A model generated the notes under the pieces. It was not told the DNA's origin, ran no database searches, and saw nothing but the letters and a program-made list of their open reading frames with translations. This document shows, piece by piece, positions 4,928 to 39,359 of a stretch of DNA of 64,000 nt. A program made the position numbers and the translations under genes. Origin of the DNA: Hyphomonadaceae bacterium (GTDB lineage: Bacteria > Pseudomonadota > Alphaproteobacteria > Caulobacterales > Aquidulcibacteraceae); contig JACMMP010000010.1 of assembly GCA_014378995.1 (NCBI GenBank), positions 1-64,000 of the forward strand. The letters run 5' to 3'. Each line of letters starts with the position of its first letter. Position 1 is the stretch's first letter.

Positions 4928-4970
4928 GGGGCGCGGGCGCGGGACGCCTCTCAGGCTCAGAGCTGGACAA

Positions 4971-5885
4971 TTGATCTACCTGCCGATCGCCGAAATGCCG
5001 GTGAACGTGCTGCTTATCCTTTTGGTGAGCGGCGCGGTGGGTTTTGTCTCGGGTCTCGTCGGCGTCGGCGGCGGATTCATAATGACGCCCGCGCTCATCT
5101 TCATGGGCGTGCCGGCGCCTGTCGCCGTTGCGACTGGCGCAAGCCAGATCGCCGCCACCTCGTTTTCCGGCATCATGACGCAGACGCGGCGCAAGTCGGT
5201 CGATTGGCGCATGGGCATGCTGCTCTCGGCCGGCGGCATTGGCGGCAGCATTTCTGGCGTGTGGCTGTTCGAGCGCCTGCTGCGGCTGGGTCAGCTCGAT
5301 CTCATCGTCTCACTGCTCTATTTGCTGCTGCTCGCCAGCGTCGGCGCCCTGATGCTCCGCGAGAGCTATCACCATTGGCGTGGACGCGAGACGCAAGGCG
5401 TTTCCATCCTGCGCCGGCCGATCAAAACGTTGGCGCACACTTTGCCCTTCCGTTTGCGGTTTCCGCGCTCGGGCCTCCATATCAGCGTGATCCCGCCGCT
5501 GGGGCTCGGCTTCGCCATTGGCGCGCTGGCAGCGATCATGGGCATAGGCGGGGGCTTCATCCTCATCCCGGCAATGATTTATCTGCTGCGCATGCCGACG
5601 AACGTCGTCATCGGCACGTCTTTGTTCCAGGTGCTGATCATCACCTCGCTCATCGTCATTCTGCAATCGGCGGCGACGCAAACGGTGGACCTAGTGCTCG
5701 CCGGATTGTTGATGCTGGGCGGGGTCATTGGCGCGCAGATGGGCGCCCGGCTTGGGGCGGGGCTCAAGGGCGAAACCATCCGCGGCGTGCTGGGCGCGCT
5801 GCTGCTGGCGGCGAGCGCGAAATTTCTATGGGATCTCTTTGTCCCGCCAACCGAACGTTATGTGCTTGGCGGAGGCCTCTGGTGA
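4971..5885 (+). CDS. TauE/SafE family sulfite/organosulfur anion exporter-like permease
   Basis: 304 residues from a TTG at 4971. The product shows two homologous halves: GFVSGLVGVGGGFIMTPALI near the N-terminus and GALAAIMGIGGGFILIPAMI in the second half. These paired GxGGG loops define the TauE/SafE permeases (about 8 helices). The TTG start is preferred because close relatives begin with IYLPIAEM, encoded here just before the first ATG at 4995. An upstream ATG at 4818 would add an unrelated Arg/Pro-rich stretch. The stop overlaps the next gene in a GTGA. The neighbouring Alph_Pro_TM protein is its habitual partner in alphaproteobacteria, which suggests a joint envelope transport role. Confidence 0.85.
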   Translation: MIYLPIAEMPVNVLLILLVSGAVGFVSGLVGVGGGFIMTPALIFMGVPAPVAVATGASQIAATSFSGIMTQTRRKSVDWRMGMLLSAGGIGGSISGVWLFERLLRLGQLDLIVSLLYLLLLASVGALMLRESYHHWRGRETQGVSILRRPIKTLAHTLPFRLRFPRSGLHISVIPPLGLGFAIGALAAIMGIGGGFILIPAMIYLLRMPTNVVIGTSLFQVLIITSLIVILQSAATQTVDLVLAGLLMLGGVIGAQMGARLGAGLKGETIRGVLGALLLAASAKFLWDLFVPPTERYVLGGGLW

Positions 5886-6664
5886 GGCGCCTCCTTGCTG
5901 CGCTCGCGTTCCTGTTGCTGTGCGCGCCTGCGGCCGCGCAAGCGCCTGCCGATGTCGCCTCCGATCTGCCGGCCGGCGTTGCGGAAGATTCGATCACGGT
6001 GAGCTCCGACTATCGCGGCTCTTATGTCACCGTGTTCGGCGTCAATCCGGATCGGCGCGGGCGCGGCGACATCGTCGTCGTTGTCCGCGGCCCCAATGAA
6101 GGGGCGGTTGTGATGCGCAAGCGGCGCGTGCTGGGGCTGTGGGTGAACGGCGATCCCGTCCGCTTCAGCGAAGCGCCGTCGTTTTTCGCCGTGCTCAGCA
6201 ACCGGCCGCTACGCTCGATCGCCAGCGCGGAATCGATCTGGCGCTATCAGCTCGACCCCGCCGCGTCCGCGCAGCTGGAAAGCTCGACGGGCGACAGCGA
6301 TCCTTCCGACTATCGCGCCGCGCTCGTGCGTTTGCGGCGCGCGCAGGGCCTCTATCAAGTCTATGCGGGCGGCGCCACGCCTGACCAACGCGGCGGGCTC
6401 ACCATGTATCAAGGCGGCCTTTTTCGCGCCGTGGTGCGCTTGCCCGCCAACGCGCCGATCGCCCAATACCAAGCCGACACCTACCTCTTCCGCGACGGGC
6501 GCCTCATCTCCGCCCAGCGCATTCCAATTAGCATCAGCCGCGTCGGCATCGAGCGGCGCATCCACGATCTCGCCACCAAGTTCCCGCTCTTCTACGGCAT
6601 GCTGACGGTGATGCTTGCGCTTGCAGCGGGGTGGGTTGCGGCGTTTCTATTCCGGCGCACGTGA
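5882..6664 (+). CDS. TIGR02186 / Alph_Pro_TM family membrane-anchored protein
   Basis: 260 residues from GTG 5882, overlapping the TauE/SafE stop by 4 bases (GTGA). A signal peptide (RRLLAALAFLLLCAPAAAQA) is followed by a beta-rich exoplasmic region. There is one C-terminal helix near residues 236-256 (GMLTVMLALAAGWVAAFLF) and a short cytoplasmic tail. SITVSSDYRGSYVTVFGV and IVVVVRGPNE match the family start. The function is unknown; the constant pairing with TauE/SafE genes suggests a periplasmic partner of the permease. Confidence 0.8.
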   Translation: MRRLLAALAFLLLCAPAAAQAPADVASDLPAGVAEDSITVSSDYRGSYVTVFGVNPDRRGRGDIVVVVRGPNEGAVVMRKRRVLGLWVNGDPVRFSEAPSFFAVLSNRPLRSIASAESIWRYQLDPAASAQLESSTGDSDPSDYRAALVRLRRAQGLYQVYAGGATPDQRGGLTMYQGGLFRAVVRLPANAPIAQYQADTYLFRDGRLISAQRIPISISRVGIERRIHDLATKFPLFYGMLTVMLALAAGWVAAFLFRRT

Positions 6665-14143: not shown

Positions 14144-15037
14144 ATGAGCGGCGACGAATTCGATCCGTCCGGATTGACCGCGCTTGTCGTGGACGACAAC
14201 CATTTCGAGCGCGGCATCTCGCTCGATCAGTTGCGCAGCATGGGCTTTCGCCGCGTCCTGGGCGCCGCCAACACCATGGAAGGGTGGGAGTCGCTAAAAA
14301 AGGCGAACCCGCACATCATTCTGCTCGAATGGTTTAACGTGGCAGGCGACGGGCTCGATTTCGTCCGCCGCATCCGCCAGAGCGAAGACGCCCCGAACCG
14401 CGCCGCGTCCATTTTCATGCTCACGTCGCGCGGCGCGTTGGCGGACGTCGAGACTGCGCGCCGCGCCGGCGTGGACGGCTATCTCCGCAAGCCCATTTCG
14501 GCGCTGGCGCTGCAGCAGCGCGTGCGCACTGTTCTGGCCAACCCACAGCCGTTCGTCGCGACGCCAAGCTATGTCGGCCCGTGCCGGCGCAGACGCCGGG
14601 ACGATCTCAATTATTTAGGCCCACGCCGCCGGCTGAATGACGCAGCCGATGTCGGCGCGGACGAAACGGAGATCGAAGTGAAGGCGCATCTCGCGCGCGC
14701 CAGCGTCGCCGCGCTCGAGGCGCACGCGCGCACACTCACCGCGGGCAACGCCAAGGCCGCACGGCATGTGTTCAAGGCGGCGCAAGAATTGATCGATGTC
14801 GCCGAGCAGATCGGCGATGCAACGCTCGCGTTCGGCGCGCGCGAGATGGCGCGCTACCTGCAAGCACAAGGCGCAACCGAGCGCCTCGATCCCGAAGTGG
14901 TGCGCACACACGTTGCGGCGCTGCATCAGCTCGCGCACCTGCCGCATGCTCTGGGCGACGAGCGCGAAGCGGTCGCACAGAGCTTGAAGCGCATGGTCGA
15001 CAAAAAACTGCGCCAGCTGACCAGCGACGCGGCTTAA
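14144..15037 (+). CDS. Atypical CheY-like response regulator with Glu at the phospho-site
   Basis: 297 residues. The N-terminal receiver domain has the acidic pair (LVVDDNHFERG, Asp17/18), Thr94 in FMLTSRG and Lys116 in YLRKPIS. The expected phospho-acceptor position reads ILLEWFN, placing Glu62 where Asp is normal. A Glu often mimics the phosphorylated state, so the domain may be permanently on or serve as a binding module. The linker contains GPCRRRRRDDLNYLGPRRR, strongly basic. The C-terminal half (residues about 175-295) is helical and resembles a degenerate phosphotransfer or signalling bundle. There is no DNA-binding domain. Its stop shares TTAA with the convergent MFS gene. Confidence 0.82.
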   Translation: MSGDEFDPSGLTALVVDDNHFERGISLDQLRSMGFRRVLGAANTMEGWESLKKANPHIILLEWFNVAGDGLDFVRRIRQSEDAPNRAASIFMLTSRGALADVETARRAGVDGYLRKPISALALQQRVRTVLANPQPFVATPSYVGPCRRRRRDDLNYLGPRRRLNDAADVGADETEIEVKAHLARASVAALEAHARTLTAGNAKAARHVFKAAQELIDVAEQIGDATLAFGAREMARYLQAQGATERLDPEVVRTHVAALHQLAHLPHALGDEREAVAQSLKRMVDKKLRQLTSDAA

Positions 15038-16416
15038 TCAGCGCGCTGCGCCGGCGGCTTCACGAACAGCAACAGCACAAAGCCCGCGACAAGCAGGATT
15101 GCGATCGAGGCAAAGCCAACGCGCTGGCTTTGATATGTGGAGGTGAAATACTCCACCAGCAGCGGCCCGAGCCACACCGTGGCGGAACCGGCCAGCGCGT
15201 AGAGCCCAAACAGCTCCCCTTCCATGCCGGGCGGCGCGAGCCGCGCCATCAACGTGCGGCTCGATGCATAAGCCGCGGTGATGGAAATGGCGATGATGAT
15301 CGCAAATCCCATGTAGCCTAGCTCCGGCGCTGTGCGGAAAATTGGCCCCTCCCAGATCAACGCTTCGGGATCGACGGGGATAAAGAAGAGCATCGACGAC
15401 GGCGCCATCGACACCATGGCGATGAGGCAGAGAAACGTGACGCCGACTTCCAGCGTCACCGCCCGCTTCGGCCCGACATTGGAATCGAGCCAGCCGCCGA
15501 CAAAACCGCCGAACACGGCGAAGGTGGTCAAGATCACGCCGAACGCGAGCATCTCGATCAGGCCCCATCCCATCACGCCGGCGGCGTAAATGCCGCTGAC
15601 GATGAGGATCGCCGTCTTGCCGTCGGCATAAAGCATACGCGCGAGAAGAAAGAGCGCGACGTTGCGATAGTCCCGCAGCTTGCGGATGGTGCGCATCACA
15701 TTGCCGACACCGCGCCGTGCGGCATCGATGAAGCGCTCGCCGGTGGTGTCGAGGTCGCGTGTGTAGAGGAAGATTGGCGCCGCAAACACCAAGAGCCACA
15801 GCGCACAGATGATAGCGACGACGCGGCTGGGCTCGTGCGCGGCCGGATCGAGGCCAAACAGCGGGGTGTCAGCGACGAACGGCCAGTCCACCTGCCCCGG
15901 CAACGCGATCGTCACCAGCACGAACACGAGCAGCAGCACAGATGCAAGATTACCGAGCGCGAGGCCGAGGCCCGAGACATAGGGCAACACATCGTGATGT
16001 GCGGCGCGCGTGATCATGGAATTGTGCAGCACCTCGGAATAGGCAAAGGCGATGCCAGCGACGATCACAGCCGCCCCCACGCCCCAAAGCGGCAGGCCGG
16101 CTCCGCCCGGCATCGCCCAATATTGCGCGAAGACGCCTGCGGCCAGCACGAGCGTCACGACGGCCAGCATCGGTTTGCGCCGGCCCATGCGATCTGTCGC
16201 GGCGCCGAGGAAAGGCGCCGTGAACGCGACGAACAAGCCGGAAATCTTGTGCCAGCCGGTGACCATCGCTTGGCCTTGCACTGGATCGCCTACAACCACT
16301 GTCGAGATGTACGGACCCAGCACGTAGATGACGCAGAGCAGCACGTACGGATTGCGCGCCCATTCGTAGAGCGCCCAACTCCAGGCGCCGCGATCGATGG
16401 AGGCGGCGGCGGGCAG
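15034..16416 (-). CDS. MFS transporter (UMF1/Atg22-like), apparent CTG start
   Basis: 460 residues if translation starts at CTG 16416. The conserved UMF1-type N-terminus WSWALYEWARNPYVLL lies upstream of the first GTG (16344). No ATG, GTG or TTG exists between the upstream gene's stop codon (TAG, 16419-16417) and that motif. The CTG follows the TAG directly and has AAGGGA nine bases upstream. DRMGRRKPML is the cytoplasmic loop signature; 11-12 helices follow. The substrate is unknown. It is the last gene of a TetR-esterase-MFS operon. The stop overlaps the convergent response regulator stop by TTAA. A start at 16344 would destroy the first helix. Confidence 0.8.
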   Translation of the reverse strand: MPAAASIDRGAWSWALYEWARNPYVLLCVIYVLGPYISTVVVGDPVQGQAMVTGWHKISGLFVAFTAPFLGAATDRMGRRKPMLAVVTLVLAAGVFAQYWAMPGGAGLPLWGVGAAVIVAGIAFAYSEVLHNSMITRAAHHDVLPYVSGLGLALGNLASVLLLVFVLVTIALPGQVDWPFVADTPLFGLDPAAHEPSRVVAIICALWLLVFAAPIFLYTRDLDTTGERFIDAARRGVGNVMRTIRKLRDYRNVALFLLARMLYADGKTAILIVSGIYAAGVMGWGLIEMLAFGVILTTFAVFGGFVGGWLDSNVGPKRAVTLEVGVTFLCLIAMVSMAPSSMLFFIPVDPEALIWEGPIFRTAPELGYMGFAIIIAISITAAYASSRTLMARLAPPGMEGELFGLYALAGSATVWLGPLLVEYFTSTYQSQRVGFASIAILLVAGFVLLLFVKPPAQRAD

Positions 16417-17451
16417 CTAGCGATTTCCCTTCAGCGCGACGGCGGTTTCGCTGGCGATACGGCGATTGGCGGCTTCGGCCGCCGGCGAAGCGGCCGGGAA
16501 CGCGACGAAGCCGTGCGGCAGCGATTCAAAGCAATGGTACGAGGTTTTCACCCCCGCCTCCTTCAGCCGGTCAGCGTATTGGGCGCCCTGGTCGAGTAGC
16601 ATGTCGAAGCCAGCGGTGTAGACGAGCGCCGGCGCCAGGCCGCGCAAATCGTGCGCGCGCAGCGGCGAGATGCGCGGATCGCTTGGATCGGCCTTCTCGG
16701 GCAGATATTGCTTCATGAAATAATCGACCGTTTCGGCTGTGAGCGGCCAAGCGTCGGCGAAGTCGTTCATCGAGGGGGTTTCGGAAGTGAAATCGACGCC
16801 CGGATAGATGAGCAGCTGCAGCACTGGCGGCTTCGTCTTGCGAAATTCTTGCGCGATGATCGCCGCGAAATTTCCGCCCATCGAGTCGCCGCCGACCGCG
16901 GCCCTGCCGACTGGCGCGCCAAATCGCGCGGCGTTGTCGACGGCCCACTGATAGGCCGCGATGCAGTCTTCGAGGCCGACCGGGAATTTGTATTCAGGCG
17001 CCAAGCGGTAATCGACCGACATTACCGGCGCGCCGGCTTCCTTCGCGACCATACTGCAGAAGCGGTGGCAGGTATCGAGCGAGCCGATCACGCCGCCACC
17101 GAAGTGGAAGTAGACCAGCATCGCCGCCGAATTGTCTCTCACGGTCGGCAAATAGAGTCGCGTCGGCACAGAATGGCTGCGCCCGGTGACGTATTGCTTC
17201 TCGACGCGAACGCCGCTGACCGCCTTGCCGCCGAACAGCTCCGAGCCCGCCTCAGTCTGCTCGCGCAGTTTGTCGACTGTCATCCGGTCCCACGATACCG
17301 CGCGTTGACGCGCTTGGGCTTCCACGAATTGGAAGCGTGGGTCGAGCGTCATGCCGCGCACGGTGCGCGCTTCGCCGCCGGACGCTTTGACCAGCGCCTC
17401 GTTGGAACGCGACAAAGCAAAGTGGACAAGCGCCTTGCGCAGCCAGGACAA
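16417..17451 (-). CDS. Alpha/beta hydrolase, hormone-sensitive lipase (HSL) family esterase
   Basis: 344 residues from TTG 17451, which has AAGGAG nine bases upstream; the nearer ATG at 17460 is followed at once by a stop codon. The oxyanion motif reads YFHFGGGVIG (HGGG variant). The nucleophile is in GGDSMGGNFA, the acid in TAGFDMLLDQG and the catalytic His in LPHGFVAF. HSL-type enzymes cleave short or medium acyl esters. The stop codon TAG is immediately followed, in the same frame, by the CTG start of the MFS gene, so rare read-through would give a fusion. It sits 18 bases behind the TetR gene, probably co-transcribed. Confidence 0.9.
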   Translation of the reverse strand: MSWLRKALVHFALSRSNEALVKASGGEARTVRGMTLDPRFQFVEAQARQRAVSWDRMTVDKLREQTEAGSELFGGKAVSGVRVEKQYVTGRSHSVPTRLYLPTVRDNSAAMLVYFHFGGGVIGSLDTCHRFCSMVAKEAGAPVMSVDYRLAPEYKFPVGLEDCIAAYQWAVDNAARFGAPVGRAAVGGDSMGGNFAAIIAQEFRKTKPPVLQLLIYPGVDFTSETPSMNDFADAWPLTAETVDYFMKQYLPEKADPSDPRISPLRAHDLRGLAPALVYTAGFDMLLDQGAQYADRLKEAGVKTSYHCFESLPHGFVAFPAASPAAEAANRRIASETAVALKGNR

Positions 17452-38324: not shown

Positions 38325-38423
38325 GCGCCACAGCAGCGGCCGCCGTCATCAAACTGCAGCAAATCCCTTTCCGCGCCCCCGAGTCGAAGAGTAGAGGAAG
38401 GCGATCCAGCGGGGCCGCATCCG

Positions 38424-39359
38424 ATGAAACTCCTAGCCGGCAATTCCAACGGGACGCTCGCTAAGGCGATCGCCGAGCATCTCGACACGCCGCTCGCGCA
38501 AGCGGAAGTGAAGCGGTTCAAGGACAACGAGATCTTTGTCGAGATTCAGGAGAACGTCCGCGGCGAGGACGTGTTCTTCATTCAGTCGACGTCCTATCCC
38601 GCAAACGATCATTTGATGGAATTGCTGATCGGCATCGATGCGCTGCGCCGCGCCTCGGCGCGCCGCATCACTGCAGTCATCCCTTATTACGGCTACGGCC
38701 GGCAGGACCGCAAAGTCGGCGGCCGCACGCCGATATCGGCCAAGCTGGTCGCCAATTTGGTCACCACCGCCGGCGCCAATCGGGTGCTGACGCTGGAGCT
38801 GCACGCCGGCCAGATCCAGGGCTTCTTTGACATCCCAACTGACAATCTCTTTTCCACACCAGTGCTCGAACGCGACATCCGCGAGGCGTACAAAGATGTG
38901 AGCAAGCTGATGATCGTCTCGCCCGACGTCGGCGGCGTGGTGCGCGCGCGCGCGCTGGCCAACCGCATCGGCGCGGATCTCGCCATCGTCGACAAGCGGC
39001 GCGAGAAAGCCGGCGTCAGCGAGGTGATGCACATTATCGGCGATGTCGCTGGCCGCGAGTGCATTCTGGTCGATGACATCGTCGATAGCGCCGGCACGCT
39101 TTGCAATGCCGCAGAGGCGCTGCTGAAGGAAGGCGCAGCTTCGGTCTCGGCCTATGTGACGCATGGGGTGCTCTCAAACGGCGCAATCAAGCGCGTGGAC
39201 CAGTCCAAACTGAAAGAATTGGTCACCACCGACTCGATCGACCCGGCGGCGCGCAAGGGTCCCAGCAGCAAGATCCGCACCGTCTCCGTCGCCGCGCTCA
39301 TGGGCGACGCCATCTGGCGCATCGCCCACGAAGAAAGCGTCAGTTCGCTGTTCGAGTAG
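38424..39359 (+). CDS. prs: Ribose-phosphate pyrophosphokinase
   Basis: 311 residues, standard length. [68 protein letters not shown] and the PRPP loop [15 protein letters not shown] are all present. It makes PRPP from ribose 5-phosphate and ATP for nucleotide, His and Trp synthesis. The 99-base upstream gap probably holds its promoter. The last 20 bases overlap the 3' end of the convergent desaturase gene. Confidence 0.97.

Follow-up and report, generated by a model that had tools for sequence, protein, structure and literature searches.

An esterase gene and a permease gene share a junction on the minus strand

The stretch of DNA analysed (the window; 64,000 nucleotides) comes from an incomplete 3.5 Mb assembly whose neighbours within the genus are uncultured assemblies labelled 'Hyphomonadaceae' or 'Caulobacterales'. 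Its minus strand carries an esterase gene followed directly by a permease gene, with the following features:

16417–17451, minus strand: esterase, upstream gene (alpha/beta-hydrolase, hormone-sensitive-lipase-like), 344 aa, from TTG 17451 to TAG 16419-16417
16426–16431, minus strand: AAGGGA, Shine-Dalgarno-like, in the Lys-Gly codons at the esterase's end, 9 nt ahead of the CTG
16417–16419, minus strand: esterase stop codon TAG (TAG, TAA or TGA in relatives)
16414–16416, minus strand: CTG, putative MFS start codon, directly against the stop (0-nt spacing)
16396–16398, minus strand: ATC, codon 7; with the CTG, one of only two near-cognate codons ahead of the motif; rejected as a start
16345–16383, minus strand: codons of the conserved N-terminal motif WSWALYEWARNPY, kept in all relatives with sequence here
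16342–16344, minus strand: GTG, codon 25, the first canonical in-frame start codon, behind the motif; judged not to be a start
15034–16416, minus strand: MFS permease, downstream gene, ATG22-like, 460 aa counted from the CTG
minus strand, same window: TetR-type regulator

Both assignments are backed by Pfam profile matches: the esterase to Abhydrolase_3 (PF07859, E=1e-69), and the permease to ATG22 (PF11700, E=7.9e-35; 120.9 bits, above the cut-off of 24.1) and MFS_1 (PF07690, E=2e-18). The esterase itself begins with a TTG behind AAGGAG, and thus both genes of the pair have non-ATG starts.

On the minus strand the junction reads ...CTG AAG GGA AAT CGC TAG CTG CCC GCC GCC GCC TCC ATC GAT CGC GGC GCC TGG AGT TGG... 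The original prediction held that the CTG at 16416 follows the TAG (16419-16417) in the same frame and without a gap, that the motif begins 11 codons later, and that AAGGGA lies nine bases before the CTG. All of these coordinates are right, and the motif's W is encoded by codon 12 of the permease frame. The permease frame contains no ATG, GTG or TTG between the upstream in-frame stop and WSWALYEWARNPY, and the first such codon is, as predicted, the GTG at 16344. We therefore confirm that a CTG stands directly behind the esterase stop with no canonical start ahead of the motif. The ATC at 16398, also near-cognate, had been overlooked.

The stop-start adjacency in relatives

The permease is present in 25 of 30 genomes of the genus and in 44 of 60 of the family. 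Two copies (G001:C124:22102-23458 and G005:C33:67814-69156) are split over two frames, through either assembly error or decay. A further 18 genomes have an esterase orthologue (71-86% identity) directly 5' of the permease gene; together with the source genome they form a coupled set of 19. The junctions of this set are listed by start codon, with a hyphen between stop and start where the two do not overlap.

CTG abutting the stop, six species, TAG-CTG: G000 (source genome), G022, G008, G006, G026, G017
CTG, no ATG, GTG or TTG at the junction, three more species (nine with CTG in all): G010, TAG-AAGG-CTG; G013 and G014, CTGA overlap with ATC just before the CTG
ATG, five species: G027, TAA-ATG; G029 and G007, TAG-ATG; G003, TAATG; G004, TAAC-ATG
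GTG, two species: G024, TAA-GTG; G016, GTGA
TTG, three species: G023 and G018, TAA-TTG; G005, TGAGC-TTG

Ten coupled relatives thus have a canonical start abutting, overlapping or near the esterase stop, where CTG stands in the others, and the CTG position agrees with the canonical start position of these orthologues. The distance from stop to start is 0 nt in the source genome and between -4 and +4 nt in relatives. Coupling by reinitiation requires an overlap or a very short distance (PMC10666635), and the pair shows this spacing throughout. AAGG or AGG is kept at the same spot in nearly all coupled relatives. Among these sequences, which codons serve as stop and start varies more than the fact that the two adjoin. 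Termination-reinitiation at the CTG, one of the options raised originally, gains support from the ten canonical and nine CTG starts found at the esterase stop.

A sequencing error at the junction had been named as a possible cause of the missing start. It is ruled out, with six separate assemblies agreeing on TAG-CTG. It is also hardly credible that the permease is a decaying gene that has lost its start. While the lack of a canonical start and the two split copies in G001 and G005 would fit decay, the six species with the same CTG have intact full-length frames, and the permeases of the five relatives among them, all from the genus, are 61-77% identical to that of the source.

The other option raised for this locus was that the esterase TAG is sometimes read through, yielding a fused esterase-permease protein some 800 residues long. 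The arrangement is suggestive in six species, where the genes share a frame with no gap and the TAG is followed by C. However, in-frame placement results from zero spacing alone, and in seven relatives (G003, G004, G005, G010, G013, G014 and G016), including those with TAATG, CTGA, GTGA and TAACATG junctions, the genes are out of frame. The stop is not constant either: TAG, TAA and TGA all occur among the relatives, and the CTG is kept exactly while leucine codons elsewhere drift. Comparison of the relatives' loci, as had been proposed, shows canonical starts at the same site in ten of them, and we regard read-through as very improbable.

Nine of 19 coupled genomes have CTG at this position, compared to none of 22 genus and family relatives that lack the upstream esterase, in all 22 of which a canonical start precedes the motif (Fisher p = 2.6e-4, phylogeny ignored). 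With phylogeny respected, only 2-4 independent pairs are available and the association is not significant.

The CTG is conserved in the manner of a start signal

Codon 1 is CTG in all six TAG-CTG species, while codons 2-6 vary freely and hold no conserved residue. This contrasts with leucine codons in general: of the 52 columns of both proteins in which all six species have leucine, only 1 keeps a single codon. The CTG is thus under tighter conservation than Leu codons, and it behaves as a start signal and not as a leucine codon. The terminal branches of the six species sum to approximately 1.09 amino-acid changes per site.

Codon 7 (ATC) was rejected as the start, as it is TTC in two TAG-CTG species (G026 and G017), where no near-cognate codon but CTG precedes the motif; other relatives have ATT, CTC, CTT or TTA. 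A counterpoint to a CTG-only reading comes from G013 and G014, where an ATC beside the CTG is also on offer. In G013, a GTG and a TTG are present further on, near the motif.

A start at GTG 16344, behind the motif, would have the merits of a canonical codon and of leaving the first transmembrane stretch in place. Nevertheless, the motif is kept in all relatives, including those with an ATG well before it, and the codon itself is GTC in G026, ATC in G017 and GTA in G003. Homologues that begin at this position, which would have spoken against the CTG, were looked for, and no homologue set does so. We consider this start highly unlikely.

By parsimony, CTG was present in the ancestor of an 11-species clade and the ATG and GTG forms are derived, as read from one gene tree with several weak branches. 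The start codon changed at least six times across the genus on this tree; because several of the deeper branches are weak, the number of gains is uncertain. In the main clade, species with ATG or GTG have 9-13 extra codons between the start and the motif (junctions L006, L007, L011, L012, L015 and L016), so the switch away from CTG seems to be linked to N-terminal extension. Taken from these comparisons, the rare CUG start seems to be real and stably inherited in the genus.

The permease is the only recurrent case in a regional survey

Start codons were surveyed in 252 conserved, non-shadow genes from the window and 20 regions of ten relatives (11 genomes). The permease was the only gene judged to be recurrently without a canonical start, and we reject a general CTG habit of the genus on the basis of this regional survey. 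Both this recurrence and the TAG-CTG junction shared by six species speak against a product of chance. Other flagged open reading frames were attributed to shadow frames or overlap with neighbours, some by inspection and others by their single or scattered occurrence alone. By eye, the recurrent flagged frame at window 4928-6664 shadows a TauE/SafE-like gene that is read in a different frame; for a further flagged frame, at window 38325-39359, an ordinary ATG is present at 38424.

The initiator tRNA stem is class-wide

The anticodon stem of the initiator tRNA-fMet carries A29-U41 in place of the textbook G29-C41 in 24 of 30 genomes of the genus (loci L113-L124; for example L117, 1472-1548, with the C1-A72 mismatch). 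No genome of the genus showed GGG/CCC there. No initiator tRNA was matched in the source genome, for which the incompleteness of the assembly is the probable cause. In a class-wide sample of 115 genomes, all 67 with a match have A29-U41. A genus-specific initiator tRNA is therefore rejected as the cause; being class-wide, A29-U41 is unable to explain why the permease gene is affected and not others. It may provide a permissive background.

A broader proposal is that CUG starts are tolerated and under-annotated in Alphaproteobacteria since A29-U41 may relax discrimination against CUG at a ribosome positioned for reinitiation, and that the pair is a stably inherited, IF3-sensitive example that holds the permease below the esterase. 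We find this proposal speculative and doubtful.

Probable translational coupling and reinitiation at CUG

The evidence is best explained if the esterase and permease form a translationally coupled pair, with termination-reinitiation at a conserved CUG start; judged from sequence, we give this reading a probability of roughly 0.83. The ribosome that finishes the esterase at UAG would already sit over the junction, and AAGG in the last esterase codons would keep the 30S subunit (or the 70S ribosome) there. Initiator fMet-tRNA would then pair imperfectly with the CUG adjoining the stop, and translation would restart in the permease frame. Reinitiation in E. coli is enhanced by a Shine-Dalgarno sequence placed 9 nt upstream, inside the first gene of the pair, and reduced by extra IF3 (PMC2268962).

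The CUG start might instead be served by fresh ribosome binding through AAGG, with the esterase merely keeping the RNA unfolded or being irrelevant. This is consistent with the predicted pairing of AAGG with the 16S tail, which is approximately -5 to -9 kcal/mol in the six TAG-CTG species when the standard anti-Shine-Dalgarno sequence, not the genome's own, is used. However, CTG-only starts are seen solely beside the esterase stop, and in E. coli CUG supports very little de novo initiation, making fresh binding an unlikely alternative. We infer that CUG does serve as the initiation site, that ribosomes reach it through reinitiation and not by binding anew, that the protein begins with Met, and that less permease than esterase is made.

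Output from CUG in E. coli is 0.86% of that from AUG, approximately a hundredfold weaker, and 0.024% of bacterial starts are CUG (figure and survey as cited in PMC11497404). According to the same source, it is not clear why CUG is avoided far more than GUG or UUG. Because CUG is this weak in E. coli, permease expression could be very low.

Retention of CTG at the level of a genus is unusual. CTG and ATG, GTG or TTG at the same junction make up a natural allele series for asking whether reinitiation relieves the CUG penalty. Start-calling limited to ATG, GTG and TTG truncates the permease behind its conserved motif.

Comparison with known systems

In described termination-reinitiation pairs (NTGA, TAATG; PMC6728339, PMC10666635, PMC12548453), as here, stop and start abut or overlap, a Shine-Dalgarno-like element lies within the upstream gene, and the gene order is common to relatives. 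The starts discussed for those pairs are ATG or GTG (NTGA in the review), whereas the start here would be a CTG at 0-nt spacing. A word search of these three papers found no naming of a CTG or CUG start. The locus combines two known phenomena in a form that we did not find described in the openly licensed papers searched.

Conserved non-canonical starts also have precedents. According to the account in PMC5472188, infC starts with ATT in E. coli and with ATC in Streptomyces; it differs in its known autoregulation by IF3. Streptomyces sigR, with a GTC start repressed by IF3, likewise has a single non-canonical start that annotation rules missed, beside a coupled partner (PMC5472188). sigR occupies the upstream position in its pair and has a strong Shine-Dalgarno sequence and a proven start, while the unusual start of the present locus belongs to the downstream gene, is a CTG, and is deduced from sequence comparison.
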